Source of the DNA: Anadara kagoshimensis
Taxonomy: Eukaryota > Mollusca > Bivalvia > Arcoida > Arcidae
Assembly (NCBI GenBank): GCA_021292105.1
Contig: CM037867.1
Location: 16,630,928-16,694,927 of the forward strand
Reading direction: 5' to 3'
Length of the DNA stretch: 64,000 nucleotides
Both the position numbers and the translations under genes were made by a program. A model generated the notes under the pieces. It was not told where the DNA came from and searched no databases. It was given only the letters and a program-made list of their open reading frames with translations. Shown here piece by piece: positions 17,219 through 52,249 of the stretch. Each line of letters begins with the position of its first letter. The stretch's first letter is position 1.

Positions 17219-18916
17219 CAAAGGGTATACAGAATGTATCTTGTATTGGTATTTCAAAATGTCTAGATGCCAGTATGGAGTGGATTTGTTTATCATCCGA
17301 ACATATATGTGATGGAGTGGATCAGTGTTACGACAGTTACGATGAAATGCATTGCGAATATAAAGAGCATCAGAATCAATACATCAGTATTATTCTATCG
17401 TGTCAGAAAAATATACATAACCAGTATTTTTACGAAATACAGGATTTGGTATATGTTAAATGGGAAACACATCTTTTTTCACGGTTTATCAATTATACAC
17501 AATTACCAGAGTTACAATGTAGTGTAGAGTATGAAATATTCAATTTAATAGATTCATCTACACAACATTTTAAGATCATATCATTCAACTCATATCACAG
17601 GTTTAGACAGATTATCAAATCAAATGTTTTACGTGGACGTCACAAATATCTCAGAAAACTAGTTTTATCAGGGAAAGGTATTTCTCGAATCTGGTCTGAT
17701 AAAACTTTTGAGAAATTTCTAGACCTTGATACTCTGGAGTTAACAGACGTTCAACAACCAATACTGCCAAATAAAGTCTTCATAAATTTATCACAGTTGA
17801 AAACACTTTGGATGCGTTGCCATTCGCTAGAAAGAATAGAAGCGGGGGCTTTTATTGGAATACATAATTGTGTGAATCTTACCATAACTGGATCTCAAAT
17901 ACAAGAACTATATCCACAAGTATTTAACAATCTAACGCATTTGGTAAACTTAGATATATCACAAAATAGGATCAACATTTTAGAAACAGAATTATTTTCT
18001 AGTATGATATCTCTCCAGGTTTTGGATACTCGCGGAAATGATATCTATATATCGGGGAAAATTTTTCAGAACAATTTGAACCTGAAGCTGATTTATAGCG
18101 GCACCTTCGCATTATGCTGTGTGAAACCCAAACAAATGTCAGATGACCGCTGCATAGCTCCCCAATTTGACCTATCAAGTTGCGAAGATTTAATTGAAAA
18201 TATTGTTCTCCGTATTTTTCTTTGGGTAATTGGTATAGTAGCTGTAATTGGTAATATAATGGTTTTGATTTATAGAATTAGAAGCAAAGGAGGACTTTAT
18301 CAAGATACATTTTCTGTTTTGGTCGGGAATCTAACTCTAGCAGACACTTTAATAGGAGTATATCTAATATCGATAGGAACTAGTGATGCAGTATTTCGAG
18401 GCGAATATATCTGGAGGGAGTACAAATGGCGAAATAGCAAACTTTGTGCAGTGCTTGGTATAATATCAGTTCTTTCATCAGAGGTGTCAGTTTTAACAAT
18501 ATCACTTATAACGTTTGCTCGATATTTAGCTGTGAAATTTCCGTTTAAAGAACATAAAATATCCAGAAAAGACGCTGTTATTGGAAGCGTTATTTCTTGG
18601 ATTGTTTCGCTTTCTATTGCATTGATTCCGCATTTCATTTTTGAGAAGTATTACTCTGCTTCTGGTGTTTGTGTATCTCTTCCGTTGAGGAAAGAAAGAA
18701 CGGATGGATGGATTTATTCATTTTTAATCTTCGTAGTTTTCAATTTTCTAACTTTTCTTTTTGTTGCACTCGCACAGATCCCGATAGTATACGAAGTGAA
18801 AAAAATATCGTCTAAAGTAGCAAGAACAGGACAATTGAAGCACATTGAAGTAGCAAAGAGACTTTCATTAGTGGTAGCAACATATTGTTTGTGCTGGATT
18901 CCTATTGGAACAATGG
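17219..18916 (+). CDS. Receptor gene A: LDLa, LRRs and TM1-TM6 of a GRL101/relaxin-receptor-like GPCR
   Basis: This 1698-nt exon follows a tttatttcag acceptor and ends at g|gtatgt, phase 1 at both ends. Residues 7-45 form an LDLa module (CIGISKC, ICDGVDQCYDSYDEMHC, with the calcium-binding acidic residues). About 180 residues later come four to five leucine-rich repeats (LRKLVLSGKGISRI, LDTLELTD, LVNLDISQNRINIL, LQVLDTRGNDI). A cysteine hinge follows (FALCCVKPKQ, SSCEDL), as in LGR and relaxin receptors. Then come TM1 (IGIVAVIGNIMVLIY), TM2 (LTLADTLIGVYL), TM3 with SSEVSVLTISLITF, TM4, TM5 and TM6 (YCLCWIP). The DRY position reads ARY. The product would sit in the plasma membrane and signal through a G protein; the ligand is unknown (peptide hormone by family). 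An internal ATG at 17275 is not the true start, because it would cut the LDLa module. Confidence 0.95.
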
Positions 18917-19532
18917 GTATGTCGAAAGTAATTGGTTGCTTCTTCGATTAAAACCTAAAACATATTATGGTCTATCCATCTCTTTAGAAAATTTTGAATT
19001 ACAATGAAATAATTAAACAATATCTGGTCTCCGAGTTCTTATAATTGGAAATTTTTCACACATCAAATTTAAAATAAAATTATCTTTAATATACGCTCAT
19101 ACTTGCAAATAAAAATAAATTGTCCACTAACACCACTAACACAGACATTAACACTAATCAATACAAGTTAATGAAAAACCAGAAAGAAACACATATATCG
19201 ACCAATAATTCAAAATTTCTTTTGACTGGTCTGGGGTATTTTTTTTCTACTTTTTTATCATAATTAAAATTACTATTAATACTTAAAAATTGAGTTAGGT
19301 TCATTTTCTTGTTACTTTCATATATCGAGTAGTACATATGTTTTGGCTTGAAGAATAAATACATGCTTTAATTCACTTCAACATTATTTAAACATCATCT
19401 TAGAGGTTTTATTTTTAAAAAATCTTTTTTACCTCATTATTCTTGTTTTGATTATTTATTATTAATAAAGTTTATGTTAGGTTATGTTTCCCGCCTCTTA
19501 ACCATCTATATTGTTAATATTTACATTTGTAG
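18917..19532 (+). other. Intron between the TM6 and TM7 exons of gene A
   Basis: AT-rich sequence with a GT start and an 'acatttgtag' end. If retained, the frame stops at 18949-18951 after about 11 extra residues, giving a receptor without TM7. Nothing else was recognised. Confidence 0.8.
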
Positions 19533-19651
19533 GTGTAATGGCTATGTTTGGATATGATATGAAAAGGACAGTTTATGCTTGGACAGTTGTATTTGTTCTT
19601 CCAATCAATTCTGCAATCAACCCATTTTTATACACTTTTATAGACTTACAG
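19533..19651 (+). CDS. Receptor gene A, TM7 exon
   Basis: This 119-nt exon enters in phase 1 and ends in phase 0 at cag|gtttgt. It reads VMAMFGYDMKRTVYAW then VVFVLPINSAINPFLYTFI. It supplies TM7 with the NPxxY motif (NPFLY) that class-A receptors use in activation. The join to the previous exon rebuilds a GVMAMFG loop without a frame change. It is too short to stand out as an open frame. Confidence 0.93.
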
Positions 19652-20181: not shown

Positions 20182-20232
20182 GTTCTGGAAAAGGTTTTAA
20201 ACAACTTGAAAACGAACTCCAAAAGTACGTAA
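20182..20232 (+). CDS. Receptor gene A, helix-8 exon (terminal, or spliced on at 20224)
   Basis: After a 'aactgttttag' acceptor the exon reads VLEKVLNNLKTNSK, an amphipathic basic stretch right after TM7, as expected for helix 8. Two fates are visible. If the a|gtacgt donor at 20225 is unused, the frame ends at TAA 20230-20232 after two more residues (ST), a short but reasonable C-terminus. If the donor is used, phase 1 joins to the hydrophobic exon 20909-21007. No clear polyadenylation signal lies close; the nearest AATAAA noticed is around 20448, in the SINE. Confidence 0.75.
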   Translation, partial: VLEKVLNNLKTNSKST

Positions 20233-20284
20233 TTATAATTGATAAACCCAACAAATGATAAAATAACACAACCCAGGGTAAATA

Positions 20285-20908: not shown

Positions 20909-21007
20909 ACAAATCAAAAAAGCTTTGGAAAATGGCAGGATTGATAACATTTGTCAGCGTTTTTCTGATGGTAGCTAATATTTTAACTAACATCGTCGAA
21001 TCGGAAG
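20909..21007 (+). CDS. Hydrophobic-segment exon: gene B start, or eighth TM of a receptor-lectin fusion
   Basis: After a strong attttttttcag-type acceptor the exon reads NKSKKLWKMAG, then LITFVSVFLMVANILTNIV, then ESE, and ends at g|gtacga in phase 1. The 19-residue hydrophobic run, preceded by five basic residues and followed by acidic ones, fits a membrane segment with its N-side in the cytoplasm. Starting at the ATG at 20935, the same peptide (MAGLITFVSVFLMVANILT) also looks like a signal peptide or type II anchor of an independent lectin. The acceptor and the matching phase with 20224 support splicing from the receptor; neither reading can be proved here. Confidence 0.65.
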
Positions 21008-21687: not shown

Positions 21688-21712
21688 CACACACACACAC
21701 ACACACATACAT
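21688..21712. repeat. (CA)n microsatellite
   Basis: About eleven CA units. The flanks share a 'caaatgcagac' theme with the minisatellite that follows. Confidence 0.9.
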
Positions 21713-21884
21713 GTTGAAGGTGTCAAATGCAGACCCGTGATATTTCCACCCAAATTGCAGACCTGCCTTTAAAATGATGCTACAGTATTGATCTCACATA
21801 TATGCCATTTATTTTGTTCTGCAATTATGAAAAGCGCTTTTTTATCAATGTAAATCCATTGCTTAACGGTAAGATTTTTACCAT

Positions 21885-22100
21885 GGAAATGCAGTCTCAT
21901 CATACACATGGGAAATGCAGACTTTGAACACACCATGGAAAATGCAGACCTGGTATACACCATGGAAAATGCAGACCTTGCATACACCATGGAAAATGCA
22001 GACCTAGCATACACCATGGAAAAGGCAGACCTTGCATACACCATGGAAAATGCAGTCCGTGTTTACACAAAGGAAAATGCAGACCTCTCATATACACAAG
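21885..22100 (+). repeat. 27-bp minisatellite (caccatggaaaatgcagacc)
   Basis: Seven or eight units of about 27 bp, each with an accatggaaaatgcagac core. Because 27 is a multiple of three, all frames stay open on both strands and give repetitive peptides (MENADLAYT on plus). There is no splice or promoter context, so I treat the frames as spurious. Confidence 0.85.
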
Positions 22101-22699
22101 GTCAATTGAGGACACAGAATGTAAATCTAGATGTTCTTTCCTAGGAGATAGTTACAGCCTAGTTACCTGAAGGACTTTATAGTCAAAAGTCCAATAATCT
22201 AAAAACCCGATAGTTCAAAGTTCTTCTCAATAGACAGCTCTGCTCATGCATCTGCTAGAGGTGTTTGGTTACTCATTAAAGAGTCTACTACTTTGTCTAT
22301 AGAACATTTTGACAAGAACATCTCCAATAAAACTGGATAGGGTAAGCCGTGGCTTCAGATTAAAAGTTACAGATGCTACATCTATTTTTCAGAATTCGCA
22401 AGCATTCGGCTCCCCACTTTTATTACATTTTTTTTCACATTTATCATAGAAATGTAGAAATATTAATTTTCACCTGTTGACCTAGTGACTATCTCTGTTA
22501 ACTATTAACTTCTGTCGACTTGGTCAACCTGTTAACCTGTCAAACTAATGACTCAGTTAAATAAAATGTCGTTGCCCTAGGGACTGCATGTCCTTTTATA
22601 ACAGTTGAACCTTTTTCTTTTCAAATTGAAAGAGTAAAACTCAGTTTTATTTGAGATGTTCAACCAGTCATTCGCAAAAGATAAAAATGCAGATTTCTA

Positions 22700-22860
22700 C
22701 GAGAAAATGATGTGCCGGAGCCGACCAGTAAGGGACCGCAGAAAGTAACATTAACTTTCTCACTTGCAATAGCTGGGAAACGAACCCGGGGCACCTTGGT
22801 GAGAGGCGAGTTTCTTATCTTCTGGGCCAACGCAGCTCCTCCAAAATCTGCCAACATGCA
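22700..22860 (-). repeat. tRNA-like SINE remnant
   Basis: Read on the minus strand, 'gctgcgttggcccagaagat' then a cccgggttcgtttccc box-B-like stretch resemble a tRNA head. The plus strand starts with 'gaccagtaagggaccgcaga', parallel to 23270-23290, so the two are related copies. Confidence 0.55.
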
Positions 22861-23254
22861 ATTCAATAAAAAAAAATTCCATTTTATGTGGCACATGCAA
22901 GCAAACCTATCAAAAAGGTGAATCGTGATCATTTTGTAAAGAAATTGGTGTTTGATTAATATTAGATTGATAAAAACAATCTTTTCTTTGGACAACACAA
23001 CTTTAAATTAGAACTGTCTACATAGTTTTTTTTCATATTGCTTAACGTCGCATTGACAATATTTCAGTCATTCGCGACGAGAACAAGGTTATTAAACTCT
23101 ATTATTAATCTATTCACAATTTCGTGAGGTGAGTGCATGCATGCGGGTGTATTTATGGTCTGCATTGTACTAGTGCGCACTGATGGAGACTTTTAAAGTG
23201 CTAGTTCACTGAAATATTGTGACGCAAACGACACAACACACAACCCGGTCACAT

Positions 23255-23420
23255 TATACTGACACCGGTCCAACCAGTAAGGGCCAACGACAAGGAAAAT
23301 TCGCCTTTCCAAATACAAGGTCCGAACGGGATTCGAACCCCAGAGGTGAAAGACCTTGGATTTGTAGACCAATGTCTTAATGCTCTGCCAATCGTGGCCC
23401 TTGTCCACAAAGTGAGCCCA
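23255..23420 (-). repeat. tRNA-derived SINE
   Basis: On the minus strand, 'gccacgattggcagagcatt' (box A region) is followed by 'ggggttcgaatcccgttcgg' (box B). The downstream part resembles 22700-22860. The tRNA acceptor stem is not conserved, so this is not a tRNA gene. Confidence 0.7.
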
Positions 23421-24148
23421 ATACCAATACATGGCAAATTCTTATGAAAGTGACCAATTAGAATGCAAACAGATCTATCTAGATAGAAACTAGAAGTTTC
23501 TTTTCAAACAAAGACAGATGTCTTCCAATCCTTCCAACATGGCTGAAAATTGCACAATACACATTGTCTGAGGATGATGAACATTTGTGTCATTTAGAAA
23601 CTTCCTTTCATGCAATCAAACTTTATGGAACAGACACAAAATACTGTCATTTTAATTCGGTTCTTGACCTTGCACCCACATGGCAGGAGATTGCACTCTG
23701 ACATGACGAGATTTAGCGCTCAGAACATCGTCTCAGTATGGTGAGCATTTGTGCCAAGTATTTTCAAAATCCCTCTATGGAAAAGATATGTGGTGAACAT
23801 GATATGTGATGGACAGTTGAACAGACCTACATCCAGACTAAAAACAATATATCTCCCTGAAAAAAAATAATTATCCTCTTTAAGAGAACAAACTACTCCT
23901 AATGTTTCATCAACATAGTGCCTTTAGTTTTAGAATCATCACTCAGATAATAAATATCCACAAAATGATGGACAAACACAGCGAAAGCAATATAGAACAT
24001 TTGTTATGGAAAGTATAATGAATAAATAAATAATTTCTAGCAAAATTAATTCTGAATACTTTTTATTTAGGCTATATGCATGACAAACTAACATTTTATA
24101 ATCTATGTTGCTTAACTATATGACTATAATAAATTTATATATAAAAAC

Positions 24149-26012
24149 AAGAGGCCCATGGGCCTTAACACTCACCTGAAGATATGTCCAAATATTGTTT
24201 GCAAAGTGGAATAGATAATATATTACATACAGAAACTTTTAAAGTTTTCTCAAGTTAAGAACTCCCACAAAACTTAATCAGAAATATATTCACTCACATT
24301 TCATTTATAAGTAGCTTATATAATAGGCATGAAGTAACTGTAGTGCAATGAATAATTTCCAGCAACTATGTCCTTGACTTTCGAACATATATGACCCTGA
24401 ACCATATATGACTGTCATGTCAATACCTAAAATATTCTAACTCACATGCCTATGCATGAAATTAATAGCTTTCAAGATAATTAATAATTTTTGTATTCCT
24501 ATGTTGATATGACCTTGACCTTTAAACATATAACCTTTAACCATATATCAAAATGATTGTCGTGTCAATACCTACAATATTCTAATATACCTGCCTATAC
24601 AAAAAGTTAATAGTTTTCAAGATAATTAGCAATTTATGTCTTCTTTTGCAGCTGTGACATTCACCTTTCAACATATGACCTTGACTCATATATAAAAATG
24701 ATTGTCATGTCAATACCTAAAGTATTCCAATATACATGTCTATACAACAAGTTAAAGCTGCATTAAGTTCTCCAAAGAAAAAAATTAAACAGTACTAATC
24801 TAACAAATGATGTTCCTAAAGAACAATGTTACATTTGGTTCAACCATAAAAGCTCAAATAAATGCAAATTTACAGTATTTACCATGCGAGATGCAGCATT
24901 TAGGATCTAATATTTGAACATGCTTACGTCATCAAAACCTGGGTCATTTAAACACAACTTTCAAAACGGTAAATACGATAAATTAAACACAGAACTTCGT
25001 TGAATTTGTCATTTGTCATTAAGTAAGGGATAAATAACACCATTTCAAATACATCTGAATATTAATGAAGGATAATTAATGCAATCTGTCATGTTTCACT
25101 TTCGATTCTAGGCTTTTTGTACATCCGTGCGCATGCTCCAAGCTCATAATTTCCATCGTAAAACACCGACCAATCGGTCAGAGGATTCCATTTATTTACA
25201 GCTAAAAGAAATTAAATTTTAGAAAATGAACGTCACGGATCGTGATTAGAAGATATCTATTTTTAAAAAATCAAAAAAAAAAAAAAAAAAAAAAAAAAAT
25301 TCAGAAAATTGATAAACTTAATGCAGCTTTAATACTTTTCAAGATAATTAGCAATTTAAGTCTGTGACCTTGACCTTTCAATATATGACCTTGAACCATA
25401 TATCAAAATGATTGTTGTCAAATACCTACAATATTCTACTATACATGCTTATACAAAAAGTTAATAGTTTTCAAAGATAATTAGCAATTTAAGTCTTCTT
25501 TTGCAGCTGTGACCTTGACCTTTCAACATATAACCTTGTACCTTATATCAAAATGATGGTTGTCACAATACCTACAATATTCTCATATATACATGCCTTC
25601 ACAAAAAGTTGATAGTTTTCAAGATATAGTGACAAATATATAATTTATAGCAATTTCCCCACTCAGTGCCTTATAATTTCCCCATTTTGAGCCCCATGGC
25701 TTCCATTTGTGCAAACAATATAAAAAAGATGACCTAAGGATGTTATAAATGAAATGACTAAGGTATATCTCTTGTAGATTCAGAGGAGAAGATTTTAAAA
25801 ATTTTCACTATTTCCCCCCTCATGGGTCCCCAAAGGGACATAACTCCTTCATTTGTGCAAATCTGAATGGGCTTCATCTGGCATGATGGTTACCAAGTTT
25901 CATTAAATTTGGCCCAGTGGTTTTGGAGGAGAAGATTAAAATGTAAAAAGTTTACCCATGTCGGACGAAGATGGATAGCAATTGCTCATCTGAGCTTTCA
26001 GCTCAGGTAATC
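24149..26012 (+). repeat. Long dispersed repeat (agaggcccatgggcct ... ctcaggtaatctaaaa)
   Basis: It starts with 'caagaggcccatgggcct' then 'ctcacctga', and ends with 'gctcatctgagc', 'ttcagctcaggtaatcta'. Start and end are partly complementary (ctcacctga against tcaggt). Inside are two to three units of the roughly 145-bp block that forms the array at 29301-30520, split by a MITE at 24756-25328. The 3' part has 'ttcattaaatttggccc' and 'ggaggagaagatt' phrases. No coding frame was seen. Confidence 0.75.
24756..25328. mobile_element. piggyBac-type MITE with TTAA target duplication
   Basis: The 573-bp insert has inverted ends agctgcattaagtt and aacttaatgcagct, and TTAA on both sides (24752-24755 and 25329-25332). 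It interrupts a repeat unit whose undisturbed neighbours read 'aaaaagttaatagttttcaa' (about 24601-24620), so the empty site is visible and contains a single TTAA. TTAA duplication is the signature of piggyBac transposases. No transposase is encoded. A 30-bp A-run lies near the right end. Confidence 0.85.
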
Positions 26013-26504
26013 TAAAAAGATTTGCTGATGTTTTTGCCCTACATTCTTGCAAACAAAGAATTCTTTTAACAAAACTTGTATTTTTAAAATGATGAATTCC
26101 ACATATAACTGTAAAAGGTTAAAGGAATGGTTTTAAAAAAAATTGTTTAAATTAGCCGAGTCTATTAGACAGATGGATGGACAGAAGGACTGATGCCTAT
26201 GTCATGCCATAAGCTAAGCTGGCTTTAGCCAGTTGATCTAAAAATGGAATAGGATACTCTTGTGTCCAAGTCTGATTTGACTTTAAAAAGATAAAAACTG
26301 ATGATAAATTTTTTTTTCATATCAAAAAATGTGAGAAATTGTACCCCAAACAGACACTGCACTGGTGCCTAAGAAAACCGTTTTCTGTTTGATGTAATTA
26401 AAGAGACCATAAATATTAAATATAAAGTCAGTATTGCAAGAATACATGTCCCCTGTCATTGAAAATTAAAAATTAAAAGAACAGCTGGACAGACTGACGA
26501 TGAG

Positions 26505-27118
26505 AAACACTACAGTAACCTAGGGACTTTCCACATCAAATTTGGTTTCATATAGCTTCGTTGTTTTGGAGAAGACTTTCAAGAAATCATGTAAATTAAG
26601 CAACCAATGATTTTAAAAATAATTGTGTAATGGTCATTCATAGCTTTGTGCTATTTATAATAATAGTGGCCATCTTGGATGCTGCTGGAAGTTTGCATAA
26701 AATTTAATCTAGGGACTGTCCACATCACATTTGGTTTCATATAGCTTTGTAGTTTTGGAGAAGATTTTCAAATAAGTCTAAATTTAGCAACTAATTTGCA
26801 TGATTACTAATAATGACCAAACAGAAAAAGTTATGGAAAAACCTGTTACATATATTAAATGGCTAGACATCTGCTTTCTTTATGTCAAATTTGAACCAAA
26901 TTGCTTTATATATAAATGTGTAATGGTCATTTTTATCTTGACCAATCAGATCGCAGAATCTGATCACATGACCAATCAACGGCAAACAACTTTGAATAAG
27001 CAACACAGCATGCCTACTAATCATTTCTGCTTATTTTCAATCAAATCCATTCAGTAGGTTAGGAGACAGATGGACAACCACTATAGTCCCCTCTGGTTTC
27101 ACCAGCAGGGGACTAATA
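26505..27118 (+). repeat. Dispersed repeat with internal duplication of about 190 bp
   Basis: The phrases 'ctagggactttccacatcaa', 'ggtttcatatagctt' and 'ttttggagaaga' occur at about 26518 and again at about 26709. The element ends in 'ccctctggtttcaccagcag' and 'gggactaataa'. The open frame at 26800-27057 is part of it and is not convincing as a gene. Confidence 0.6.
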
Positions 27119-28199
27119 ATTCAAAAATAAAGTTTTCTTTGCTTCAACCATTATTTAATCCAAACTTAAACCAACGTCTAAATTTTAATTGATTTACATA
27201 ACTCCAAAACTTAATCATGTTATAAAGAAAATTCACTACATTTTGGGCAAAAAGTATTTTCATCATCATCATCACTTCTGACCAACATTTATTTGCCTTA
27301 TCAAGCATATTTATTTAATTTATCAAGCATAAGTGCAGCTACTATAACGTGATAGAACAGTTGTGAGTAGACCCCAATGAAAGCTCATCAGACCAAGATA
27401 TCTGCTTCATGATCTTGATTTTCAACCCCCCCTCCCCCTATCCCATGAAAACCTTTGTTGATCCATTTGTGCCAAGTGACACAGAAAGTCCGAACAGGAC
27501 AAAACATTGAGACCGTCATTGCTACAATGTAAGTCAATGTGACCTACTTTTGTTTTGGAAAGGAAGTGCACTATAACACCAGGGTTCTATTGAATGACAT
27601 GTATTGCTGTCCCCACTTTGTTAGTAAAAGGGTCATCATTACTTTTCATAATTTTTCATCATCATCTATTTAATCATTAAAAATACTAAAAAAATTATAA
27701 TAAAAATTTAAAGTAATATTTTGATAATGAACTAGAAAGTAACTGAACATAAAATATAGGTCAACTTCCACATCAGCAGCATCCATGTTTCATCATCTTT
27801 ATCACATTTTAAATCCTAAATTTATGACTTTAGTTGTCATGCTGTATGTATAATGATATACAAAAACTTAACATTTGAGTCCAAAGTAAAACTTTAACAC
27901 TGATGTAGAAAATCACTGAACATACATTATATAGGTCAACATCCACATAAGCTACATCAATCTTACAATCAACCTGATCATGTATCAAATGCTACTAAAA
28001 TTAATTCATGACTCTATTTGTTAAGGCATTCATATGTACAATACAATAAAAAAAATAATAATACAAAACTTTACATTGAAGTTTAAGGAAAAACTTTAAC
28101 CTAGATTTACAAAGTATACTGCAGATTGAACACATATTAACTGAATCTAAGACTGTTGGGGACTGGATTGTGGCAAGTAACATTGATTTTCTCATTTTC

Positions 28200-28560
28200 G
28201 TGAGCCAGGATTCAACTTGTTTTTAACATATTTGGTCATTGTGACCTTGAGCCAAGGACAAGGTCATTTCTTTGAACAAACTTGGTAACCCTTGATGTGT
28301 AGTTGATATATACCAAGTTTCATGCTTCTAGGCCTTATTGTTCATGAGAAGAAGTCATTTAAAGGTTTTACTATATAAGATCACTGTGACCTTGAACAAA
28401 GGTCAAGGTCAATAATTTAAACAAACTTGAAAGCCCTTGACCTAAACAAGCTTCCTGTCAAGTTTGGTGAAATTCTGATTATTGGTTTCAAAGAAGAAGT
28501 CATTTAAGTGAAAAGTTAACGGACGACAGATGGCGGCTTTCAGCTCTTGGTGAGCTAGTA
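28200..28560 (+). repeat. Dispersed repeat rich in tgaccttga motifs
   Basis: The stretch contains gtgaccttgagccaaggaca, 'gtgaccttgaacaaaggtca' and 'aggtcaaggtcaa', so TGACCT/AGGTCA half-sites in both orientations. It ends in 'cagctcttggtgagctagta', close to the ending of the 24149 and 29181 repeats. Confidence 0.6.
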
Positions 28561-29180
28561 AAATACAAAAACTTAACACTGAAGGTGAAAGTAAAAATTT
28601 AACATTAGATTTCCAGTCACTAAACCATGAAATATGTCACTTTAGCATCAGCAGCATGTACAATGTTTTATCTGTCATAATTAAATGTTCATTACAGTTT
28701 AGCATTCAAAGTGCCAGTACATTCTGAGAAAAAGATTAAAATACAAAATTTTTACAATGACGACGGAATAGTATCACCTATGTTTTGCCTGTGCACCTTC
28801 ATCATGTTGAGAAAATAAAACTATATTTCAAGTCCTATGGTCTTGCAAATCATGTGGAAAATCTTCTTTACAGAGACCTACTTTTTCTATTGAGTAATGA
28901 ACCCTAACATGATCCTATATGTCATGAAACTGATACCTACAGAAAGGGGACATATAAATAAGTCCAACCAAAGTGCGACAAACAGAGATGAACAGATGCC
29001 CAAACAACTTTTTTAAGGTAAACATATAGATATTGTGCAGATCGTTATTGCAACAAGTGGTCAGACATTCAGCAATGCAAAAACTAAATACAGGAAAAAT
29101 ATACATCTCTTATCCTAAACACAAAATTATTGCTAAATACATACATGTATTTTGTGTTTTGAGTCAAACATACTTTCAAC

Positions 29181-31088
29181 AAACAAGAGGCCCATGGGCC
29201 TGATATGCTCACCTGATAACTAATGGTTAGCTGATATATTTAAAGAACACATAAATACTAAACCCCAATGACTTTTTTCTTTACATCATGATAACCATTG
29301 TATCAATACCTACAACATTCTAATATACATGCCTATACAAAAAGTTTATAGTTTTCGAGATAATTAACCATTTTGGTATTGTTTTGCATCAGTGACCTTG
29401 ACCTTTGAACCCATGACCTTTTTCTATACATCAAAATGATCGTTGTATCAATACCTACAACATTCTAATATACAAGCCTATACAAAAAGTTTATAGTTTT
29501 CGAGATAACTAACCATTTCGGTATTGTTTTGCATCTGTGACCTTAACCCTTGAACCCATGACCTTTTTCTATACATCAAAATGATCGTTGTATCAATACC
29601 TACAACATTCTAATATATAAGCCTATACAAAAAGTTTATAGTTTTTGAGATAATTAACCATTTTGGTATTGTTTTGCATCTGTGACCTTGACCTTTGAAC
29701 CCATGACCTTTTTCTATACATCAAAATGACCGTTGTATCAATACCTACAACATTCTAATATATATGCCTATACAAAAAGTTTATAGTTTTCGAGATAATT
29801 AACCATTTCAGTATTGTTTCACATCTGTGACCTTGACCTTTGAACCCATGACCTTTTTCTATACATCAAAATGATTGTTGTATCAATACCTACAACATTC
29901 TAATATACATGCCTATACAAAATGTTTATAGTTTTCGAGATAATTAACCATTTTGGTTTTGTTTCGCATCTGTGACCTTGACATTTGAACCCATGACCTT
30001 TTTCTATACATCAAAATGATCGTTGCATCGATACCTACAACATTCTAATATATATGCCTATACAAAATGTTTATAGTTTTTGAGATTATTAACCATTTCG
30101 GTATTGTTTCGCATCTGTGACCTTGACCTTTGAACCCATGACCTTTTTCTATACATCAAAATGATTATTGTATTAATACCTACAACATTCTAATATACAT
30201 GCCTATACAAAAAGTTTATAGTTTTCGAGATAATTAACCATTTCAGTATTGTTTCACATCTGTGACCTTGACCTTTGAACCCATGACCTTTTTCTATACA
30301 TAAAAATGATCGTTTTATCAATACCTACAACATTCTAATATACATGCCTATACAAAATGTTTATAGTTTTCGAGATAATTAACCATTTCGGTATTGTTTC
30401 GCATCTGTGACCTTGACCTTTGAACCCATGACCTTTTTCTATACATCAAAATGATCGTTGTATCGATACCTTCAACATTCTAATATACATGCCAATACAA
30501 AAAGTTTATAGTTTTCGAGTTAATAATTATAATCAGAGGTAAAAAAAAATAGGTCACGACCTTCACAATCGACCTTGACCTCATTTTGAAGATACTAACA
30601 AGAAGATGTCAAAACTGAAAACCCCATGTCATTATCTGGTCAAATAGTCAAGTTATAACAATTTGAAGCTATTTTACGATTTTTTCAAATTAAACGCAAA
30701 AACGCGTAACCTATTTTTTATCCGAATTTCACAAAATGAACAAACTATAGGCTTAAGACCCTAGAGAAGCCAAATATCACATCAGATTTTTTCTCCAATC
30801 ATTGGTTTCGGAGAAGAAGATTTTTTAAGATTTTTGCACCCCTAGGTCACCTTGACCTAGTTATGGTAGCCATAGCAACGCCACGAACAAATCTGAATTG
30901 CACTGACCCATATATACTTCTGACAAAGTTTCATTAAAAACTGTCCAGTAGTTTCAGAGGAGAAGTCGAAAATAGGTGTTAACGACGCACACACGCACGC
31001 ACGCACGCACGCACGCACACACGCACGCACATACACACGCTGCGCTATGCCATAAGCTCACATGACCTTCGGTCAGGTGAGCTAAAAA
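29181..31088 (+). repeat. Long dispersed repeat carrying the 145-bp array
   Basis: It starts 'caagaggcccatgggcctga', 'gctcacctgata' and ends 'cggtcaggtgagctaaaaa', so the two ends can pair (gctcacctga with tcaggtgagc). The 3' half (30540-31088) matches 780-1125 in part and includes 'ccttgacctagttatggtag' and an (ACGC)n run at 30987-31035. No protein-coding frame was seen. Confidence 0.75.
29301..30520 (+). repeat. 145-bp tandem array, eight units plus a partial
   Basis: The marker (g/t)atc(a/g)atacctacaaca starts at 29301, 29446, 29591, 29736, 29881, 30026, 30171, 30316 and 30461: every step is exactly 145 bp. Each unit carries 'tgaccttgacctttgaaccc' followed by 'atgacctttt', that is, four TGACCT/TGAACC half-site sequences in one direction. 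Units differ by substitutions only, with no indels visible. Diverged units lie in the repeat at 24149-26012. Confidence 0.93.
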
Positions 31089-31834
31089 ATGTTATCATTA
31101 ATTTCATATAATGAAATGTAATATATCAATAAATGTGTAAATTTAAAAACATGAATATATCTTAACATTGAAATTTAACTCAACAATAAGTACAAAGTTT
31201 CATGTAACAAATTAACAAAAAATTCTTTTATACAAAATATATCGGATAAAAGGTAGACAGGTAATGCTTTGATGGGATTAGATTTACACTTTTTATCCTT
31301 ATTTCAGGTTTTTTTAAGCTCTATAACAATCTTTTTCAGACTATAATTAATACTTAAATTACTTCACACTGTGTGAAAATAACTTAAGTAAGGAAAACTC
31401 ATCTATTCTTTGAGACACTGCTTATTAAACTTGACTTCGGATTTCAGTGCCAGTGTTTTAAACATCTAAGAAGTTATTAGCAGTTTATAATATACACTTA
31501 TAGCAAGGGGTACCTTTAAAAGTTTTACATAAAATTCATTTAATTGTTTTAATATTATACAAAATATCCATTAGCATAAAGAGTTACACAAACTGAAAAA
31601 CTCTCTCCAATTTCACAAAACTGAAAAGAGCACAAAGGAGCCTTCACATCTTCATTATTATTTCTAAAACCTTGTCCTATAAGAATGACCTTGCTTTTTA
31701 ATAGGCTTTGTCTATACTAGGTTTGATAAAACAAGAGACCAACTAGGGCCTGTGTAGCTCAGCTGTCTAAAATGCCTTCATGCTAGAGCTGTATACCTTA
31801 AACTTTCAAAGAAGATTTTTACACAATTTTCCAC

Positions 31835-31957
31835 AAAAGATTTTCAAGGATGATTTGCAAATGTATGCAAATATAAAACCATGACTCTCCAGTATGCAGC
31901 AAAGGATGATTTGCAAATGTATGCAAATATAAAACTATGACTCTCTAGTATGCAACC
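31835..31957 (+). repeat. Tandem duplication of about 58 bp
   Basis: The block aggatgatttgcaaatgtat + gcaaatataaaac + tatgactctc occurs twice in a row (about 31846 and 31904). Each copy holds a gatttgcaaat/gtatgcaaat pair, that is, octamer-like ATGCAAAT sites. Confidence 0.8.
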
Positions 31958-32543
31958 AAAAATGGCACCATGGGAGCCCTTCGTAAAGTTAGAGGCCCAA
32001 TTGGCCTGAACAGCTCACCTGGCACACATCTATTGTAAAACATGTCAATTTGAAGCAAAAATACTGAGATGTTGACAAATCAATCACCAGATAAAAAGTA
32101 GACATGACCTGAATTTTGACCTTGACCTATAATTGTTGCAAATGTTAAAACTGATAATCCCATGTTATTTTATGCAATTACAACCACAAAATTGTCAAAA
32201 CATCATCAATATTATTACGTTTATCTTTCATATGCCCCTGTGCCAAGTTTCAGCTTTGCGGGAATGAGTTAATAACTTGAACATCTATGGCCTGTGGATT
32301 AGTATTCCACAAAATATAAATGTTAAGCTTTAAAACTGTAGGAGCATGCATCACAACTGTTCATGAATAGATGGATACATACATATATACATATATACCT
32401 TTATCAAAATAAATTCCACTTATTCTGTATCATACTTCAACCACTTTTTTCAGAATTTTTACCCATACGTTCTTAACTACTTAAATCTAACTGATAGATC
32501 GTTAAGTATGTCACTCTAACTGAACATACATTTACATTTAAAC

Positions 32544-32761
32544 TCAGCTAAACATCTCTGATGTACGTAAATTTCTATTTCGGCAGTAATGTTTAATTTG
32601 ATGCCATGTTCTGCTTTTTAGGGAAACCTCTCTGGCTTTTGCAGATTCACATTCTCTCTTTCCAGGAATTTGCCTCAGTTTTAGAAATTTCCAAAGCTGT
32701 CGTTCAACTGCTTCAATTTCTAATTTAGTCCACTTTCTCCTTCCATCTGCTTGATTGAAAT
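32544..32761 (-). CDS. SET gene, last exon with SANT/Myb-like segment
   Basis: On the minus strand the exon follows a 'cttctgcag' acceptor at 32762, enters in phase 1 and ends at a TGA (32546-32544). The segment starts ADGRRKWTKLEIEAVERQLW, continues FLKLRQIPGKRECESA and SLKSRTWHQIKHYCRNRN. The W-x2-E-x3-(I/V)-x3-L start and the W-x2-(I/V)K end are typical of SANT/Myb-like three-helix folds. I recall similar segments (PGK-x-(E/D)C ... W-x2-(I/V)K) in animal proteins near KMT5A-like SET domains, but cannot verify this. The phase fits exon 33926-34039. Confidence 0.75.
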
Positions 32762-33216
32762 CTGCAGAAGATAATTTTTAATGCCAAGAGTGAAATGCAA
32801 AGAAATATGGCTCTTAAAACAAAGAGTTTATCATGCAGTAATTTAAGTAGCCAAATTTATTAGCCGTGCTCTGCTTTACAACTTAAGTGTTATGCTTCTA
32901 TTAGATTGTCAGAGCACAAAAACACTGCATGCTACTATATATACACTAATAAAAGCCAGCCAAAAACTAGTTTAGACAAGTGTGTGCTTATAATTGACAT
33001 AATATTCCTTCAGAACTTCATCTGATCTTCCAGCAAAATTGGTAACATCTATATGAAATAAATTACACTCTGAGTCTGATCTTAAAACTTAAAATGGATT
33101 TTGCTTTGCTATTTTTAACATCATTAAGTGCTTCACGTAGTTACTGACTGAAGTGTTTGAAGCAAACAAGCAAAACAAACGATTCCTCATTGCAACAAAT
33201 GGAATAAAAACAAATA

Positions 33217-33830: not shown

Positions 33831-33925
33831 TAGTTCTAAAGAAATGATAACTGACAGGCACTGTCAGCTATTAACAACATTAGCAAACAAGCTGTATTGT
33901 GAAATGACAAGTAGGATAATTATAC

Positions 33926-35894: not shown

Positions 35895-36590
35895 TTCTCT
35901 ATTTTTCATGGTTTAGAATTTATCAACAGCTTTTTTAATTCTTCATCTGTGAGATGAATTTGTCCCTCCTGAAATAATTCTGATAATGCAGTCAACATTG
36001 GTCTAGCTATGGGTAGAACGCAGCTTGGTTACAACAGGGTTCATCAGTGAAAACAGCCTCTCAGGACTCAGAGATGATTTTGGTGTCTGACAGAGGAATT
36101 CACAATATTTACAGAAATATTTTCTTCTTGTTGCACTGAAATTAAGCCAGGGAAGATTTATCTTGTGTCTCCGACTACTGAACATTCTGCTATCATGCAC
36201 AAAAACTTTAGACTGAGGTTCATCAGATTCAAAGTCCAAATTAGAGTCACAATTGGCATAAGGCTCAACAATAAGAGAAACATTTTCAGTCGCAACCTGA
36301 ATGACTTTGTTCACCACATGTTCATCACCATTGTTTTCTTGGACTTCAGTTAACAGCTGGGACTGAATGGGTATTGTCAACAGATGTAGATGCTGTTTCA
36401 CTACATGGACAGTGTTGATTGTGACCAGCAATGAAAAAAAAACTGAAAATAAAGCCGGGTCTGGGGGCTGCAGGTCCCCAGTGGGGTTCAGGGGCAGCAC
36501 CCCGATGGGGGGACCAGGGTGCGAAGCCGAAAATGGTTTTAAGCATTTTAGAGGGCCCCCAGGATGCTCAAAAATGCAAGGATTTTTCAC
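35895..36590 (-). pseudogene. hAT-family transposase remnant
   Basis: The minus-strand frame (36590-36003) has a proline/glycine-rich start from a GC-rich tract. A zinc-finger-like WLNFSATRRKYFCKYCEFLC follows, as in the TTF-type finger of hAT transposases. Then, without the central catalytic region, comes SPERLFSLMNPVVTKLRS, which resembles the C-terminal dimerisation motif. After a frame change the reading goes on to about 35910 (MLTALSELFQEGQIHLTDEE). So N- and C-terminal pieces are fused by a large internal deletion. It has no transposase activity. Confidence 0.72.
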
Positions 36591-36963
36591 ATAAAAATAC
36601 AGATCTTTCTAACCATTCCCATACATTTTTTATACCTTTATCAACGAATCCCAGTCAATGACCCGGGACACCATTTTTTTAAATGCTGATAGCATGGGTT
36701 TTCATCCGTTAAATAAAACCAAGTTGGTGATTGGACAGCTGGAAACACTTTATCCAATGAAATTTATGCTTAGAATGTGGGACCGTTGTGGAAACAGATG
36801 GACTCGAAAATGTTCCGGAATTAAATCTCGTGAAAATGACACAAAAAATCGGATCTTCAACACACAATCGGAAATCCGTTTTAAAACGGAAAGAAATCAT
36901 CACTGCATGGAATATAACTTGACATATTTTCAGACAGACTCGCACCTACCGACTGAGACTTTT

Positions 36964-37028
36964 TGGAGTGGAGTGGAGTGGAGTGGAGTGGAGTGGAGTG
37001 GAGTGGAGTGGAGTGGAGTGGAGTGGAG
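36964..37028. repeat. (GGAGT)n 5-bp satellite-like run
   Basis: About thirteen perfect GGAGT units. They encode a WSGVE repeat in one open frame, which I consider non-coding. Confidence 0.95.
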
Positions 37029-37084
37029 TAATGGTATTTTACCCCCCAATCAAGATTTTTCACTTATTTTGAGGCGGTCAGTTC

Positions 37085-37260
37085 TGAGATGGTGGAGGAA
37101 ACCAGAGTGCCCGAAGAAAACCACCGACCTTCGGCAAGTGAACTGACAATCTTTCTCACACTAGGATCTGTCCCGAGTGGGATTCAAACCCAGGCGATGA
37201 GAGGCACTGTGATCCGTAAGCGCGCACTTTAGACCACTCGGCCACCAAAGCCCCTGAGAC
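37085..37260 (-). repeat. tRNA-derived SINE (Ser/Leu-like head)
   Basis: Minus strand: 'ggtggccgagtggtctaaag' (box A of type II tRNAs), then 'gggtttgaatcccactcggg' (box B). The tail to the left shares 'tctcacactaggat' and 'ggtggaggaaacc' with 7494-7620. There is no full acceptor pairing, so it is a SINE and not a tRNA gene. Confidence 0.75.
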
Positions 37261-38849
37261 TTTTGGAGAAAACAGTATTGATTTTCAAACAGCCTTAAGC
37301 TGTTTTCTTGCTTATTTTTCGTCTGAAGTACACCGAATTGTCCGACATTTCCTACTTTCGATTTTGACAAGACAGGTTCACAACTGTGACAACTAACTTG
37401 TGAGTACTATCGGAAACATGTCAGATATGGTACATTCAGTTAAAGAAAGATAGCTCCAAGAGGACTAAATGACTATAATACGTTATCGATATAATTATGT
37501 AAAGTAGGGCAATCATTATTTACTTTAGATTGACTACTGACGCAAGTTTTTTTTTTTTCATTTAATGTATCGGAATTATTCATGCATTTTACCAGTTGAT
37601 CGAAACTGAGAAAAAATAGCAAGCATTTTTGGGAAAGAACATAAATTTTTGCCATTGTGATTGGAGACAAATTGCGGCCCCAAATTAAGCAGATCGACAG
37701 CCATGGACAGTTGTTCGAAACACTGCTGCACCATAAATGCATACAGATCATTCATATTATAAAAGCCTGCACCATAAAATACTGCCCAACTACTATTTCT
37801 ATCAAGAATTTATATTGGAAAAATAATTGTGGATAAAGCTGAATAACCACTAAATAAAGTCCAAAACTAACTACATTCAACTTAAATCAAGTCCTCTTAG
37901 TTAGTCGCTGTAGACAACAATGTAAATTTTGATGGTGGTCACCATGATTCAAGTTTTTCATTCAGGTTGCCAGGGTGATGACCCTCTCCCATAATTTCTA
38001 GGATTTATCAACACAGAAACTTTATGAGTTTTTGTTTACAATGGATGTTGTGCTGATTTATTGTGATTACAAATATTTGAATATTTAAATTTTTCTGTTC
38101 TTGTTTTCAAGATTCTATCTCCATCTTATCAAGGTGTTTTGAAGTTACATGTATGTTGTATAAATTTATGAACACATCAGCCCATTAAAAAAATTTATTC
38201 AACACTCGTTCTTATAAAAATGGGTCAAAGACTCAATGGCCATGGGCTGGGTTGTTTTTTAAATTTCTATTGAATGGGTGTAAAGTGTAGAAGGAATTTT
38301 AAATAATTGCACAAAGCAAGGTGCACAAGTTGTTTTTGTTTTTTTTTAATACTTCACAGAAAGTTATAAAATGGGAATATGTCCAACAATGACAATATAT
38401 ATGAAAGAGTAATGAAACAAGTATATATATGTAATAGGAAAATCTCAATCATTTTAACATTTTCTAAAGCTACAGTAAGTTGAAAAAATGTGCACCAGAA
38501 ACTTTACATTGAAATGGACTGGATGATATGGACAGTACAGGACAGAAAGGCAAAAGGGTAACAGCACTAGCTTTCCAGACTTTCATCCAGTAGCTAATAA
38601 ACCAATGATTTTTAGAACATAAACATTTTTGTAGTTTTCTTTCATATATGTATAATAATCCTATTTTTTAAAGATTTGAAATTTAAAACCTGTCACAGTA
38701 GGATTTAATGGCATAAAGGTTTTATTACATCATTTGAAGTCAGGTGCACATCTTTGATAATCTTTTGATAAATACAGTACAAAGTTTCAAATTCTGGAAA
38801 AATGGGGAAAAAAATACTGAAATATTTCCATAAAGTCAGGTTCACATCT

Positions 38850-38858
38850 TATATATAT

Positions 38859-38903
<45 letters not shown>
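38850..38903. repeat. (TA)n microsatellite
   Basis: About 25 TA units, with one break near the start. Confidence 0.95.
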
Positions 38904-38905
<2 letters not shown>

Positions 38906-39126
38906 AGAAGTTGAGTTCACAAAGTAGGTACCCTATTTTCCCCGCTCACCAGCCCGCCCGTCATTGCACTATGTGCAACCCCATTTTTACAAAATTTTTT
39001 CCTCTAGTCCCTTTTTACCTAGTCCCTTGAAGTAGCTTCAACCCAATTGCATTACTGGCAGCGTACAAATTATTAACTATTTCAGTGAATAGTGCAAAAC
39101 TGATTTACTCAGTAAACAACACTTAC

Positions 39127-39263
39127 CAATGTATTTTCTCCAAATATTTGAAATAATAGATGTAGCACCTTCCATTCTTCATTCTGTTTGTTCTATCTAT
39201 TGCTTCTTCTTCGGATATTCTCTCTCCAACATACTCTAGGAGGAAATCTCCTTTGTCAAATTT
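39127..39263 (-). CDS. SET gene, N-terminal SET-domain exon (KMT5A/SETD8-like)
   Basis: Minus strand; acceptor 'gtctttacaaccag', donor tg|gtaagt, 137 nt. It encodes KFDKGDFLLEYVGERISEEE, then MKNGRCYIYYFKYLEKIH. The KGD-F-x-x-EY-x-G start and the C-Y-x-YYF-x-YL end match the KMT5A/SETD8 SET domain, which monomethylates histone H4 lysine 20. The frame stays open upstream to about 39390 (including RGLKFFTQRL), so a longer first exon is possible. Earlier exons of this gene were not found to the right. Confidence 0.85.
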
Positions 39264-39544
39264 CTGGTTGTAAAGACACCATTTCCGGTCCCATTTCCGG
39301 TCATGCGCAACCAATCTTTGTGTGAAGAACTTCAAACCGCGGTAAATGGCGAAGCACGATCCACATACACGGATGTCTTGAATTCGGTGTCAAATGCGAC
39401 ATCAATAAATTTTACCTTTTTTCACATAAGAAGGGTTTAAATTTTTGAAAAAAATGAAAATCGAAATGCGGACCTGTCTGAAGTCCGCACTTAGTTTTAG
39501 AGTCTGCACTTGGAAGGTGTGTATTCATACCGAAGTCTGCATTT

Positions 39545-39554
39545 GACACAACTT

Positions 39555-39600
<46 letters not shown>
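39545..39600. repeat. (CA)n microsatellite
   Basis: About 25 CA units, preceded by gtctgcatttgacacaactt, similar in theme to 21688-21740. Confidence 0.95.
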
Positions 39601-40121: not shown

Positions 40122-40175
40122 ATTTTTTTAAACTTCATCGACAGTTACAAAAAGAATCACTAAAGAATAAACAAG
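40122..40175 (+). CDS. Gene B stalk exon 1
   Basis: 54 nt between a 'tgtgttttcag' acceptor and a g|gtacag donor, phase 1 at both ends. It encodes FFKLHRQLQKESLKNKQ after a split Asp. The residues are hydrophilic and helix-prone, as in the neck between a membrane anchor and lectin heads. Small symmetric phase-1 exons like this can be added or skipped without shifting the frame. Confidence 0.6.
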
Positions 40176-40676: not shown

Positions 40677-40751
40677 AAGTAGCACAAGCAAGATTTCAGA
40701 CGACGCTTTTAAATAAGAAAGTGATGGCTTTTAAGGAAAAAATGGAAAATG
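40677..40751 (+). CDS. Gene B stalk exon 2
   Basis: 75 nt between a 'tctatttttag' acceptor and a g|gtaata donor, phase 1 at both ends. It encodes VAQARFQTTLLNKKVMAFKE and KMEN. The spacing of hydrophobic residues (V, F, L-L, V, F, M) suggests a short coiled coil. Confidence 0.62.
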
Positions 40752-41375: not shown

Positions 41376-41405
41376 ATTATTGTTACAAAGGTTTAAAAGA
41401 AACAG
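41376..41405 (+). CDS. Gene B stalk exon 3 (30 nt, contains Cys)
   Basis: A 30-nt exon between 'ttctgtttcag' and g|gtttgt, phase 1 at both ends, reading DYCYKGLKET with its split codons. The single Cys just before the lectin heads could make an interchain disulfide. It rests on splice signals and matching phase only, hence the lower confidence. Confidence 0.5.
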
Positions 41406-42210: not shown

Positions 42211-42299
42211 GCATTGGGTACTGCTGCATAGATTGGAGCGACTTAAATAAAGGGTGTTTTAAAATAAGCATGGAACCTAAGAACTGGTATGAAGCAGAG
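42211..42299 (+). CDS. Gene B, CTLD1 exon 1
   Basis: After 'atatattaag' the phase-1 exon reads GYCCIDWSDLNKGCFKISME, then PKNWYEAE, ending in phase 0 at gag|gtaata. This is the start of a C-type lectin domain: the C-x-x-x-W-x3-...-C-F strand and the W-x-x-A first helix. Confidence 0.82.
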
Positions 42300-42906: not shown

Positions 42907-42997
42907 GTTGGCTGTCGTGAAATAGGGAACCTGGCTACTGTAGATGATTCTAAACCCTACAAATATCTGACATCAATATTCGACAATTTTGAAATGC
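42907..42997 (+). CDS. Gene B, CTLD1 exon 2
   Basis: Phase-0 entry after 'ccttttctcag', phase-1 exit at c|gtaagt. It reads VGCREIGNLATVDDSKPYKY, LTSIFDNFEM. This is the classic C-x3-G-x-LATV strand of C-type lectins, followed by the second helix. Confidence 0.87.
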
Positions 42998-47436: not shown

Positions 47437-47662
47437 ATATAGCATTCTGGATTGGACTTTATAGTTATGCTTACAAAAATGAATTCAAATGGATAGAAAC
47501 AGATTCTGCTTTGGAATTGAAAGACACTTACGGATATTTTCTCAGAGAATCAAATGATCTAGCTGTTAACGGTTGTGTTAAAATAGGTTTTGTGAATGGT
47601 CATACGTACAGATTAGTTGATGCTCTTTGTTATACCCACTCAGGATCAGTATGTCAAATTGA
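47437..47662 (+). CDS. Gene B, CTLD1 exon 3
   Basis: After 'ttttttccag' it continues in phase 1: AFWIGLYSYAYKNEFKWIET, then NGCVKIGF and ALCYTHSGSVCQI. The WIGL motif, the W of the core and the last two disulfide cysteines of a C-type lectin fold are all here. The calcium/sugar motif (EPN or QPD) is absent, so this head probably does not bind sugar in the usual way. The donor is ga|gtaagt: if not spliced, the same bases read GAG TAA and end the protein, giving a one-lectin form. Confidence 0.88.
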
Positions 47663-47938: not shown

Positions 47939-48053
47939 ATTCCACAGAAGCAAAAAATATATTCCTGTCTCGCTTTGTCCGTATGGATGGACTGAAGTAG
48001 GGAAATCGTGTATACTGTTCTCTAGAAAGAAGGAACTTTTTTGGAGAGCTAAG
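47939..48053 (+). CDS. Gene B, CTLD2 exon 1
   Basis: Acceptor 'gttttaatcag', phase 2; donor aag|gtatgt, phase 0. It reads FHRSKKYIPVSLCPYGWTEV, then GKSCILFSRKKELFWRAK. The CP-x-GW-x-x-x-x-x-SC start is that of a second C-type lectin domain, linked to the first by about ten basic residues. Confidence 0.88.
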
Positions 48054-48762: not shown

Positions 48763-48853
48763 GAAATAAGTGAGATATATGGAAATCTTCTTACAATAGA
48801 TACACCAGAAATTCATGAAAATTTACTGCCGATACTAAGACAACGAGCAAGAG
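48763..48853 (+). CDS. Gene B, CTLD2 exon 2
   Basis: Acceptor 'tatatgtttag', donor g|gtagag. It reads EISEIYGNLLTIDTPEIHEN, then LLPILRQRAR. It is the counterpart of CTLD1 exon 2 (same length and same exon phases), so the two domains arose by duplication of a three-exon unit. The usual Cys before G-x-L reads Ser/Ile here (EISEIYGNLL). Confidence 0.82.
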
Positions 48854-50590: not shown

Positions 50591-52001
50591 TGCAGTAAGT
50601 AGATACTTCACCTTCAACCTATAACAGCTGTCTTTATTTTAATGTGTTCCTTAGTTTCTTAACCTCTCGGTTATTTATTGAAGATACTGGTATGTTTCTA
50701 AAATTAGTGTTCCCATGTGAACATAATAAAGCTTTGTAAAGTATTTGCATCAATGTACTTGTCTATAATAATTATTCAATTTAAAGTTCAAGCAAATTGG
50801 TCAGTTGTTTGCTAGGTTATTTAACGTTGACCTTATACACAATACACGTAATCGGTTTTTTATATTTCCAATACATCAATATGATGTTTAAGCATCTTCT
50901 TATTTATTTTAAATTGAAAAGTATACGTAATACATTTAAAAGAAAGATATTGTTCCATTATATCAAAACATAGTTACTTACACGTGGTATTGCTTTACAA
51001 AAACACACTGTACTCGGTAAAAAGAATAAAAGTATGCAATATGAATGATAATAAGAAATTTTCTTTACTCATTTGCGTTCAAAAAGATAAGGGATGGCAG
51101 TGCTAAACCCAAACAATTATTATTATACATTTATTGTCTTTTGTCTTTGAAAGAGGGAAGTATGAACGTTTACCCGCAGCAAGTTATATTATCCGACATT
51201 GAACCACGAGAGAAATGTGACATGTTAGGGGGTGTTCATATTGGTCAAAAGTCATGACCGATTCTCTATCGATGACCTCATATCATTGTGACGTATAGGT
51301 GTGTTCCGAATAAGGGATGTATTACAGTGAAACTTTATCGCATGAAGGAAATATGATATTTCAATCCTCACCATGTGATTGCTCTCATCGAATCAAATTT
51401 AGTATTTATGAGTGATGTATAATGAATGATATGATATATAAAAACACACCGCACTCCATTCAATGAAAACAAATATGCAATATAAATGGTAATTTAGAAA
51501 TGCTCTTAACTCATGGAAGTTCAAATAGTTAAGGAGTAGCAGTGGTTATCCCAAGTTATTACTAAATTGTTTTGAAGATGTAAACAGAACCATAATGTTA
51601 TATGTCTAAACATATCCTTGTTAAAATCATAAACAGTTTGCCACCACTGCTATTTATGTTCAGACAATAGGTAATATTCCGACCAGTCCAAATTGTTCGA
51701 CTTTTTATGTTATATTCAGATGAAGCTCAATTATTGAATGTGAATTTATATTCCCTCTTGTATCTAATAGGTGAGAAAGTTTAAACTGAAACATTTAATG
51801 ATTTCACATTCCTCAACCATTAATGGATACAGTGTTTTAGTATAATTGTTGTACATGACTTTGAAATTATTATAACAATGTTATTTGTCTTTTAGATTTT
51901 ATAGGGTATTTCATTCTATTGAATTGTTTTGGAATATAAACAAAACGTTTTTTTTTTTATTTCTATAAATATTAATAACATTGTAATTTGTTTTTCTTTA
52001 G
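50591..52001 (+). other. Rest of the last lectin intron
   Basis: AT-rich intron. A loose duplication is visible: 'gataataagaaattt' with 'ctcatttgcgttcaaaaag' near 51045-51085, and a similar stretch near 51490-51530. No exon was recognised. Confidence 0.6.
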
Positions 52002-52249
52002 AATCAAAAGGGTATTCTTACTGGATTGGTTTAGTAAAGGAAAATGATATTTGGATTTGGTTAAGTACACAGAAACCAGCTACATATACTAACTGGATTG
52101 AAGGTCAACCGGATCATTCGGACATTTGTGGTTATTATGATTCTACGATAAGTAATTTTAGATGGGATGCGTATGGTAGAGATGAATGCGCTGATCTTGT
52201 ATCTAAAAATTACATTTCTGAAAAACTAATTTATAAATGGTATAATTAG
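52002..52249 (+). CDS. Gene B, CTLD2 last exon with QPD motif, stop codon
   Basis: After 'tttttctttag' the exon reads SYWIGLVKENDIWIWLSTQK, TYTNWIEGQPDHSDICGYY, RWDAYGRDECADL and ends in TAG at 52247-52249. The WIGL core, QPD (52106-52114; in C-type lectins QPD usually favours galactose-type sugars) and the C-x(n)-RWD-x(n)-C stretch are present. The last Cys-x-CE strand of the standard fold is missing or changed, and the chain ends KLIYKWYN. Calcium-dependent sugar binding is plausible, not proven. Confidence 0.92.

Follow-up and report, generated by a model that had tools for sequence, protein, structure and literature searches.

Receptor, membrane and lectin exons in the window

We analysed a 64,000 nucleotide (nt) window of the Anadara kagoshimensis genome (contig CM037867.1, here C11, positions 16630928-16694927), in which exons of a G-protein-coupled receptor (GPCR) are followed on the same, plus strand by exons encoding two C-type lectin domains (CTLDs). 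An initial annotation had proposed that these exons might form a single gene, with the seven-transmembrane (7TM) part of the receptor running on through an eighth transmembrane segment (TM) into a double-lectin ectodomain. Splice sites in the window were scored with a matrix built from the remaining exons, and the host assembly (1.115 Gb, 36 contigs) was searched for paralogous copies. The sequence evidence leads us to favour one fused gene with a joined reading frame, a reading to which we assign a probability of about 0.62.

The receptor part begins with two open exons at 3031..3305 (YWTSG motif, phase 1 out) and 15284..15421 (phase 1 in and out, open frame DDLYVTGNKGEFGRINV, acceptor gttag, donor CAC/GTAAGT), the first of which joins 15284 and then 17219 in frame. 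The exon at 17219..18916 encodes an LDLa-like module, leucine-rich repeats (LRRs; Pfam LRR_8, 44.9 bits) and TM1 to TM6 (Pfam 7tm_1, 91.6 bits), and is followed in the chain by the open TM7 exon at 19533..19651 (PINSAINPFLY) and a 43 nt helix-8 exon at 20182..20224. The latter has a phase-1 donor (GTACGT) which, if read through, leads to a stop at TAA 20230-20232, and the three segments 17219-18916, 19533-19651 and 20182-20232 translate without internal stop as far as this TAA. The best solved relative was relaxin receptor 1 (RXFP1), with 215 bits over LRR and 7TM, the next scoring 119. By sequence, the receptor is a relaxin-receptor/GRL101-like (LGR type C) GPCR, in which both the rhodopsin-class 7TM and the preceding LRRs are confirmed by Pfam. 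The LRR part of the initially annotated YWTD-LDLa-LRR ectodomain stood. The other two labels denote patterns only, because Pfam Ldl_recept_b (YWTD) gave no match in the two joined exons, most of the domain being expected to fall outside the window, and the LDLa pattern CDGVDQCYDSYDEMHC, though present, scored 10.9 bits against a cut-off of 24.1. The exons at 3031 and 15284 are accordingly labelled YWTD-like only tentatively.

Downstream lies a 99 nt membrane exon at 20909..21007 (phase 1 in and out), which encodes a candidate eighth TM or internal signal. The basic stretch, the 19-residue hydrophobic run and the acidic residues after it that had been described here were all present, and the ATG previously placed at 20935 is at 20932. 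It is followed by stalk exons E2 (40122..40175) and E3 (40677..40751), the latter heptad-like and coiled-coil by inspection only, and by the short exon E4 (41376..41405), which is present in the C7_19 and C4 copies and was not found in C14. CTLD1 is encoded by E5 (42211..42299, GYCCIDW), E6 (42907..42997) and E7 (47437..47662; 14 genome matches at 13 loci), and CTLD2 by E8 (47939..48053), E9 (48763..48853) and E10 (52002..52249, with a QPD motif and the stop at TAG 52247-52249). Joined translation confirmed that the exons at 40122, 40677, 41376 and 42211 are entered in phase 1 and that the frame, with introns in phases 0, 1, 2, 0 and 1 from E5 onward, remains open to this TAG. Both of the proposed lectin heads passed the Pfam Lectin_C cut-off of 22.6 bits, CTLD1 with 35.3 bits over E5-E7 and CTLD2 with 26.4 bits over E8-E10. 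EPN or QPD is the sugar motif of C-type lectin domains. In translation, CTLD2 has QPD and a WD pair and CTLD1 neither, so CTLD2 appears the likelier sugar binder of the two. The best PDB matches of this downstream part were the yolk sac IgY receptor (63 bits) and CLEC6A (35 bits); no match was scored among 559 candidates in a protein-database search with the lectin, and scans of the window for transfer RNA (tRNA) genes with ARAGORN and against Rfam gave no call.

Junction between helix 8 and the membrane exon

Rebuilding the exon chain bore out the phase match on which the proposed fusion depends: the donor after 20224 (AAAA/GTACGT) leaves phase 1 and the exon at 20909-21007 enters in phase 1. 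The acceptor at 20909, described initially as strong, ranked among the best 0.7 % of AGs in the window and was the only AG of such strength in 20225-21900. The 43 nt helix-8 exon with its GT donor was found in 13 of 13 close copies examined, a count that leaves out the C8 copy, and at 9 of 15 wider-family loci scanned; of the others, L043, L048, L053 and L058 had too little sequence, L054 was disrupted and L046 yielded none. When the donor was read through at 12 loci, a stop followed after two codons in the window, C7_19 and the wider-family locus L044; at the remaining nine it lay 5 to 28 codons on, with tails alike only among close relatives. The stop behind the donor was not kept in C14 or C4. 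It is thus the donor, more than the stop, that is conserved. On the far side of the junction, all 14 loci keep the membrane-exon acceptor and ten have the 99 nt frame open from it, the others being one base short (C11_16.78, C11_17.27 and C4_44.02) or carrying two extra bases (C11_17.38).

Exons shared between helix 8 and E5 were sought by pairwise blastn among the window, C7_19, C7_23, C14 and C4 copies. Between the TM7 exon and the stalk, the window, C7, C14 and C4 had just two exons in common, the helix-8 exon and the membrane exon. Extra blocks that might represent an alternative tail exon, or a first exon of the lectin, occurred in single pairs and in no case in all lineages, and the open AG-to-stop tails in the gap between helix 8 and the membrane exon shared no common peptide by eye. 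This gap measures 684 bp in the window, 942 bp in C14, 1.66-1.74 kb in C7 and 448-450 bp at the two C4 loci, the last of which leaves little room for one gene to end and the next to begin.

Paralogous receptor-lectin loci in the genome

The receptor-exon search listed 85 rows, from which 12 rows that were second pieces of an already listed locus were omitted to leave at least 73 loci; receptor figures here and below are among the matches listed, 77 of 586 candidates having been scored. At least 55 % identity to the window receptor was seen at 41 of these loci, with 32 below, a line set after the table had been seen and with the next lower receptor at 45 %. Lectin loci were sought with the E5-E6 peptide of the C14 copy (77 rows, 46 at E<=1e-3, from which the omission of six E6-type second pieces left 40 E5 loci) and with the window E10 (47 rows, 46 used). 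An E5- or E10-like exon lay downstream on the same strand of 40 of the 41 close receptors (E5-like for 38, E10-like for 27) and of none of the 32 more distant ones. Conversely, 38 of the 40 E5 loci had a listed receptor upstream. E10 also matches other lectins, as 19 of its 46 rows were without one. The receptor-then-lectin loci are spread over 15 contigs, and the recurrence of the same order and strand at 40 of 41 loci places the arrangement beyond chance.

The membrane exon itself was found at 14 loci (eight on C11, two on C7, one on C14, and C4:44.02 Mb, C4:45.15 Mb and C8:52.64 Mb), all of which had a receptor upstream and a lectin exon downstream. Splice sites and lengths of E2, E3, E5 and E6 were kept in C7_19, C14 and C4, the sole departure being one inserted base in the E5 of C7_19. 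In C14 or C7_19, E7 and E8 varied in length, in each case by a multiple of three. Synonymous divergence from the window in receptor and lectin, respectively, was 0.64 and 0.79 for C14, 0.68 and 0.68 for C4, and 0.20 and 0.17 for C7_19, the lectin values using up to six of ten lectin exons. The ratio of non-synonymous to synonymous divergence between the window and C14 was 0.37 for the lectin and 0.19 for the receptor.

A further CTLD exon lies on the same strand 32 kb upstream of the window's 7TM exon, beyond the left edge of the window. Among the matches listed (150 of 868 candidates scored), such an exon was present 12-47 kb upstream of at least 34 of the 41 close receptors and of none of the 32 distant ones. 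Biomphalaria GRL101-like receptors have an N-terminal lectin domain (PMC12297450), and the upstream exons agree with such a design; the window receptor, too, probably carries a lectin domain at that end. We rejected the idea that the downstream lectin supplies the 5' half of a receptor gene further on, as the next listed C11 receptor after it is on the opposite strand and the upstream CTLD exon is separate.

Two tandem clusters were apparent among the paralogues. In the region C11:16.5-17.4 Mb, eight receptor-lectin units are spaced at 104-133 kb; two are read on the plus strand and six on the minus, and several have broken frames. The second cluster, at C17:25.98-26.43 Mb, holds five related receptors approximately 96-136 kb apart.

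Intronic insertion and repeats

The 19.1 kb intron after the membrane exon (21008-40121) contains a 17.84 kb insertion at 21712..39555, both ends of which are near (CA)n tracts. The insertion was missing from 4 of 4 other C11 copies compared, in which the segment from the membrane exon to E2 is otherwise colinear with the window, and without it the intron would be approximately 1.3 kb. Two minus-strand SET-domain frames, both KMT5A-like by eye, lie inside it at 35262-35516 (38.3 bits, over the Pfam cut-off) and 39123-39389 (14.5 bits, below it).

Other repeats were recognized by eye. These comprise a mariner-like transposase fragment on the minus strand at 1816-2700, just left of exon 3031-3305; a stretch resembling a tRNA-derived short interspersed nuclear element, with a GGTTCGAATCTC box, at 20280-20460 between helix 8 and the membrane exon; Penelope-like frames (reverse transcriptase and GIY-YIG pieces) on the minus strand at 43581-45161 in the intron before E7; and repeated units with a TGTCCGTTTGAC core at 48950-50590 in the last lectin intron.

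One gene or two

We consider one gene likelier than two neighbours because receptor and lectin are linked at 40 of 41 listed loci, because the helix-8 donor is kept and the stop behind it is not, and because the membrane-exon acceptor is kept. The most serious competitor, which we regard as unlikely on balance, is a pair of neighbouring same-strand genes that were copied together. The receptor would stop at TAA 20230 or continue into a tail exon that escaped notice, and the lectin would have an intron in its 5' untranslated region, start at ATG 20932 with a signal peptide, and be secreted or a type II protein. This arrangement leaves the conservation of the donor over the stop to be explained, requires a tail or 5' exon of which no common form was found within the 0.45-1.7 kb gap, and sits poorly with the linkage and with the loss of the ATG at 3 of 14 loci, where GTG replaces it (both C7 copies and C11_17.38). 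The replacement in C7 was considered as strong proof of fusion and set aside, the E5 frameshift of C7_19 making it weak. A number of observations do, however, weigh against a fused gene. An ATG with A at -3, in the position of a signal-peptide start, is present in the membrane exon at 11 of 14 loci, and in the window it is preceded by an in-frame TAA at 20896. The segment beginning MAGLITFVSVFLMVA is compatible with a signal peptide, for which inspection by eye puts V-E-S at -3 to -1, and signal-peptide exons are commonly followed by a phase-1 intron. In C7, C4 and C8 a lysine trims the hydrophobic core to approximately 13 residues, which is below the usual TM and suits a signal sequence better than a tether. 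In favour of fusion, C11, C14, C4 and C8 share an L-W-K ahead of the ATG in which leucine is written by four different codons (CTT, CTA, TTA and CTG). Against it, the other codons there vary freely, and no third-position excess was seen ahead of the ATG on aligned copies judged by eye. The copies with GTG all carry other lesions, namely the C7_19 frameshift in E5, the +2 shift in the membrane exon of C11_17.38 and the seven stops in a receptor exon of C7_23. To these may be added the moderate strength of the donor at 20224 (best 5.4 % of window GTs) and the possibility that a short or fast-changing tail exon was overlooked, as block searches are weak for short exons; one such search missed the 43 nt helix-8 exon between the window and C14, which another comparison found. 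Nor is the linkage complete, with one of 41 receptors lacking any lectin match and two of 40 E5 loci lacking a listed receptor, and it could also stem from duplicated blocks holding two genes. The receptor exon is open and the lectin part broken in C11_16.78, C11_17.38 and C7_19, and a search with the membrane-exon peptide matched only at close loci, with no wider-family equivalent seen. The initially proposed fusion thus retains the linkage, the conserved donor and the lack of any other common exon in its favour, and is weakened by the frequent ATG and the signal-like segment.

Separate promoters with optional read-through offer a compromise, in which a short receptor and a separate lectin would be the main products and the fused messenger RNA (mRNA) a minor conjoined transcript. 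All three products are readable in the window, given the in-frame stop behind the donor and the ATG of the membrane exon, yet the retention of a 43 nt exon and its donor into the wider family exceeds what minor read-through would need, and we judge this improbable. A chance match in phase between unrelated exons, with the downstream lectin belonging to an unrelated gene, has a probability close to negligible: the phases alone would agree about one time in three, but 40 of the 41 listed loci repeat this order and strand.

Predicted topology and products

Under the favoured reading of one fused gene, a GPCR family of the GRL101/relaxin-receptor-like type would have gained a C-terminal lectin module. 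The helix-8 exon would be spliced in phase 1 to the exon at 20909, giving a chain that runs from the ectodomain through the 7TM, helix 8, a basic linker, the hydrophobic segment and the stalk to CTLD1 and CTLD2. The C-terminal tail of GPCRs lies in the cytosol, within reach of arrestins and kinases. With basic residues before it and acidic residues after it, the hydrophobic segment could act as an in-to-out start-transfer sequence and so place the stalk and both CTLDs outside. It may then hold the lectins as an eighth TM, or signal peptidase may cut after the short core, and we give the two outcomes about equal weight. The segment also fits a cleavable signal peptide, so that signal peptidase might free the lectin and one mRNA would yield a receptor and a soluble lectin. 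Where the helix-8 donor is left unused, a short receptor ending in KST would result. As a tentative extension, which we hold at somewhat less than even odds, approximately 40 loci may encode GPCRs with lectins at both ends, comprising an N-terminal CTLD, the 7TM, an eighth in-to-out segment, a coiled-coil stalk and two CTLDs that are displayed at the surface or released.

Relation to known receptors and significance

The receptor part resembles RXFP1 and LGR type C in its LRRs and 7TM and in the LDLa-like module ahead of the LRRs; to our knowledge these have no lectin and no eighth membrane segment. Multi-CTLD and CLEC-type lectins share the CTLD fold and are single-pass or secreted, and we know of no CTLD lectin on the C terminus of a GPCR. 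Polycystin-1 has a C-type lectin in its N-terminal ectodomain and 11 TMs, in an unrelated membrane part. It is described as an animal membrane protein with GPCR-like properties (PMC9672506). The main text of PMC10140915 is without the terms GPCR, 7tm, G protein and LDL.

The closest parallel is the SudRes2 cluster of Biomphalaria sudanica, where, according to PMC12297450, GRL101-like receptors carry a C-type lectin domain described as N-terminal. The likeness extends to clustered paralogous mollusc GPCRs with LRR, LDL-A and C-type-lectin ectodomains and to truncated or missing copies (PMC12297450), and is matched by the CTLD exons upstream of at least 34 of the 41 listed Anadara receptors. What sets the Anadara loci apart from that description is a second, double CTLD module after the 7TM. 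Neither C-terminal nor YWTD appears as a term in the main text of PMC12297450, and the C-terminal double-lectin form was not found in the open-licence literature searched. Relatives with an N-terminal lectin are thus already published for Biomphalaria, and the C-terminal double-lectin arrangement is what differs here.

If the fused reading is true, an additional membrane crossing with lectins on the outside would constitute a new receptor topology. If the chain is cleaved, it would be a natural precursor, with one mRNA supplying both a signalling receptor and the soluble lectin that belongs to it. The domain content, the expanded and partly broken copies and the snail relatives are all consistent with a role as recognition receptors, in which glycan recognition would be coupled to G-protein signalling. 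Because an association with schistosome resistance is described for the related cluster in the snail (PMC12297450), this expanded set with extra lectin heads may represent a candidate invertebrate recognition system in which glycan binding would be coupled directly to G proteins.

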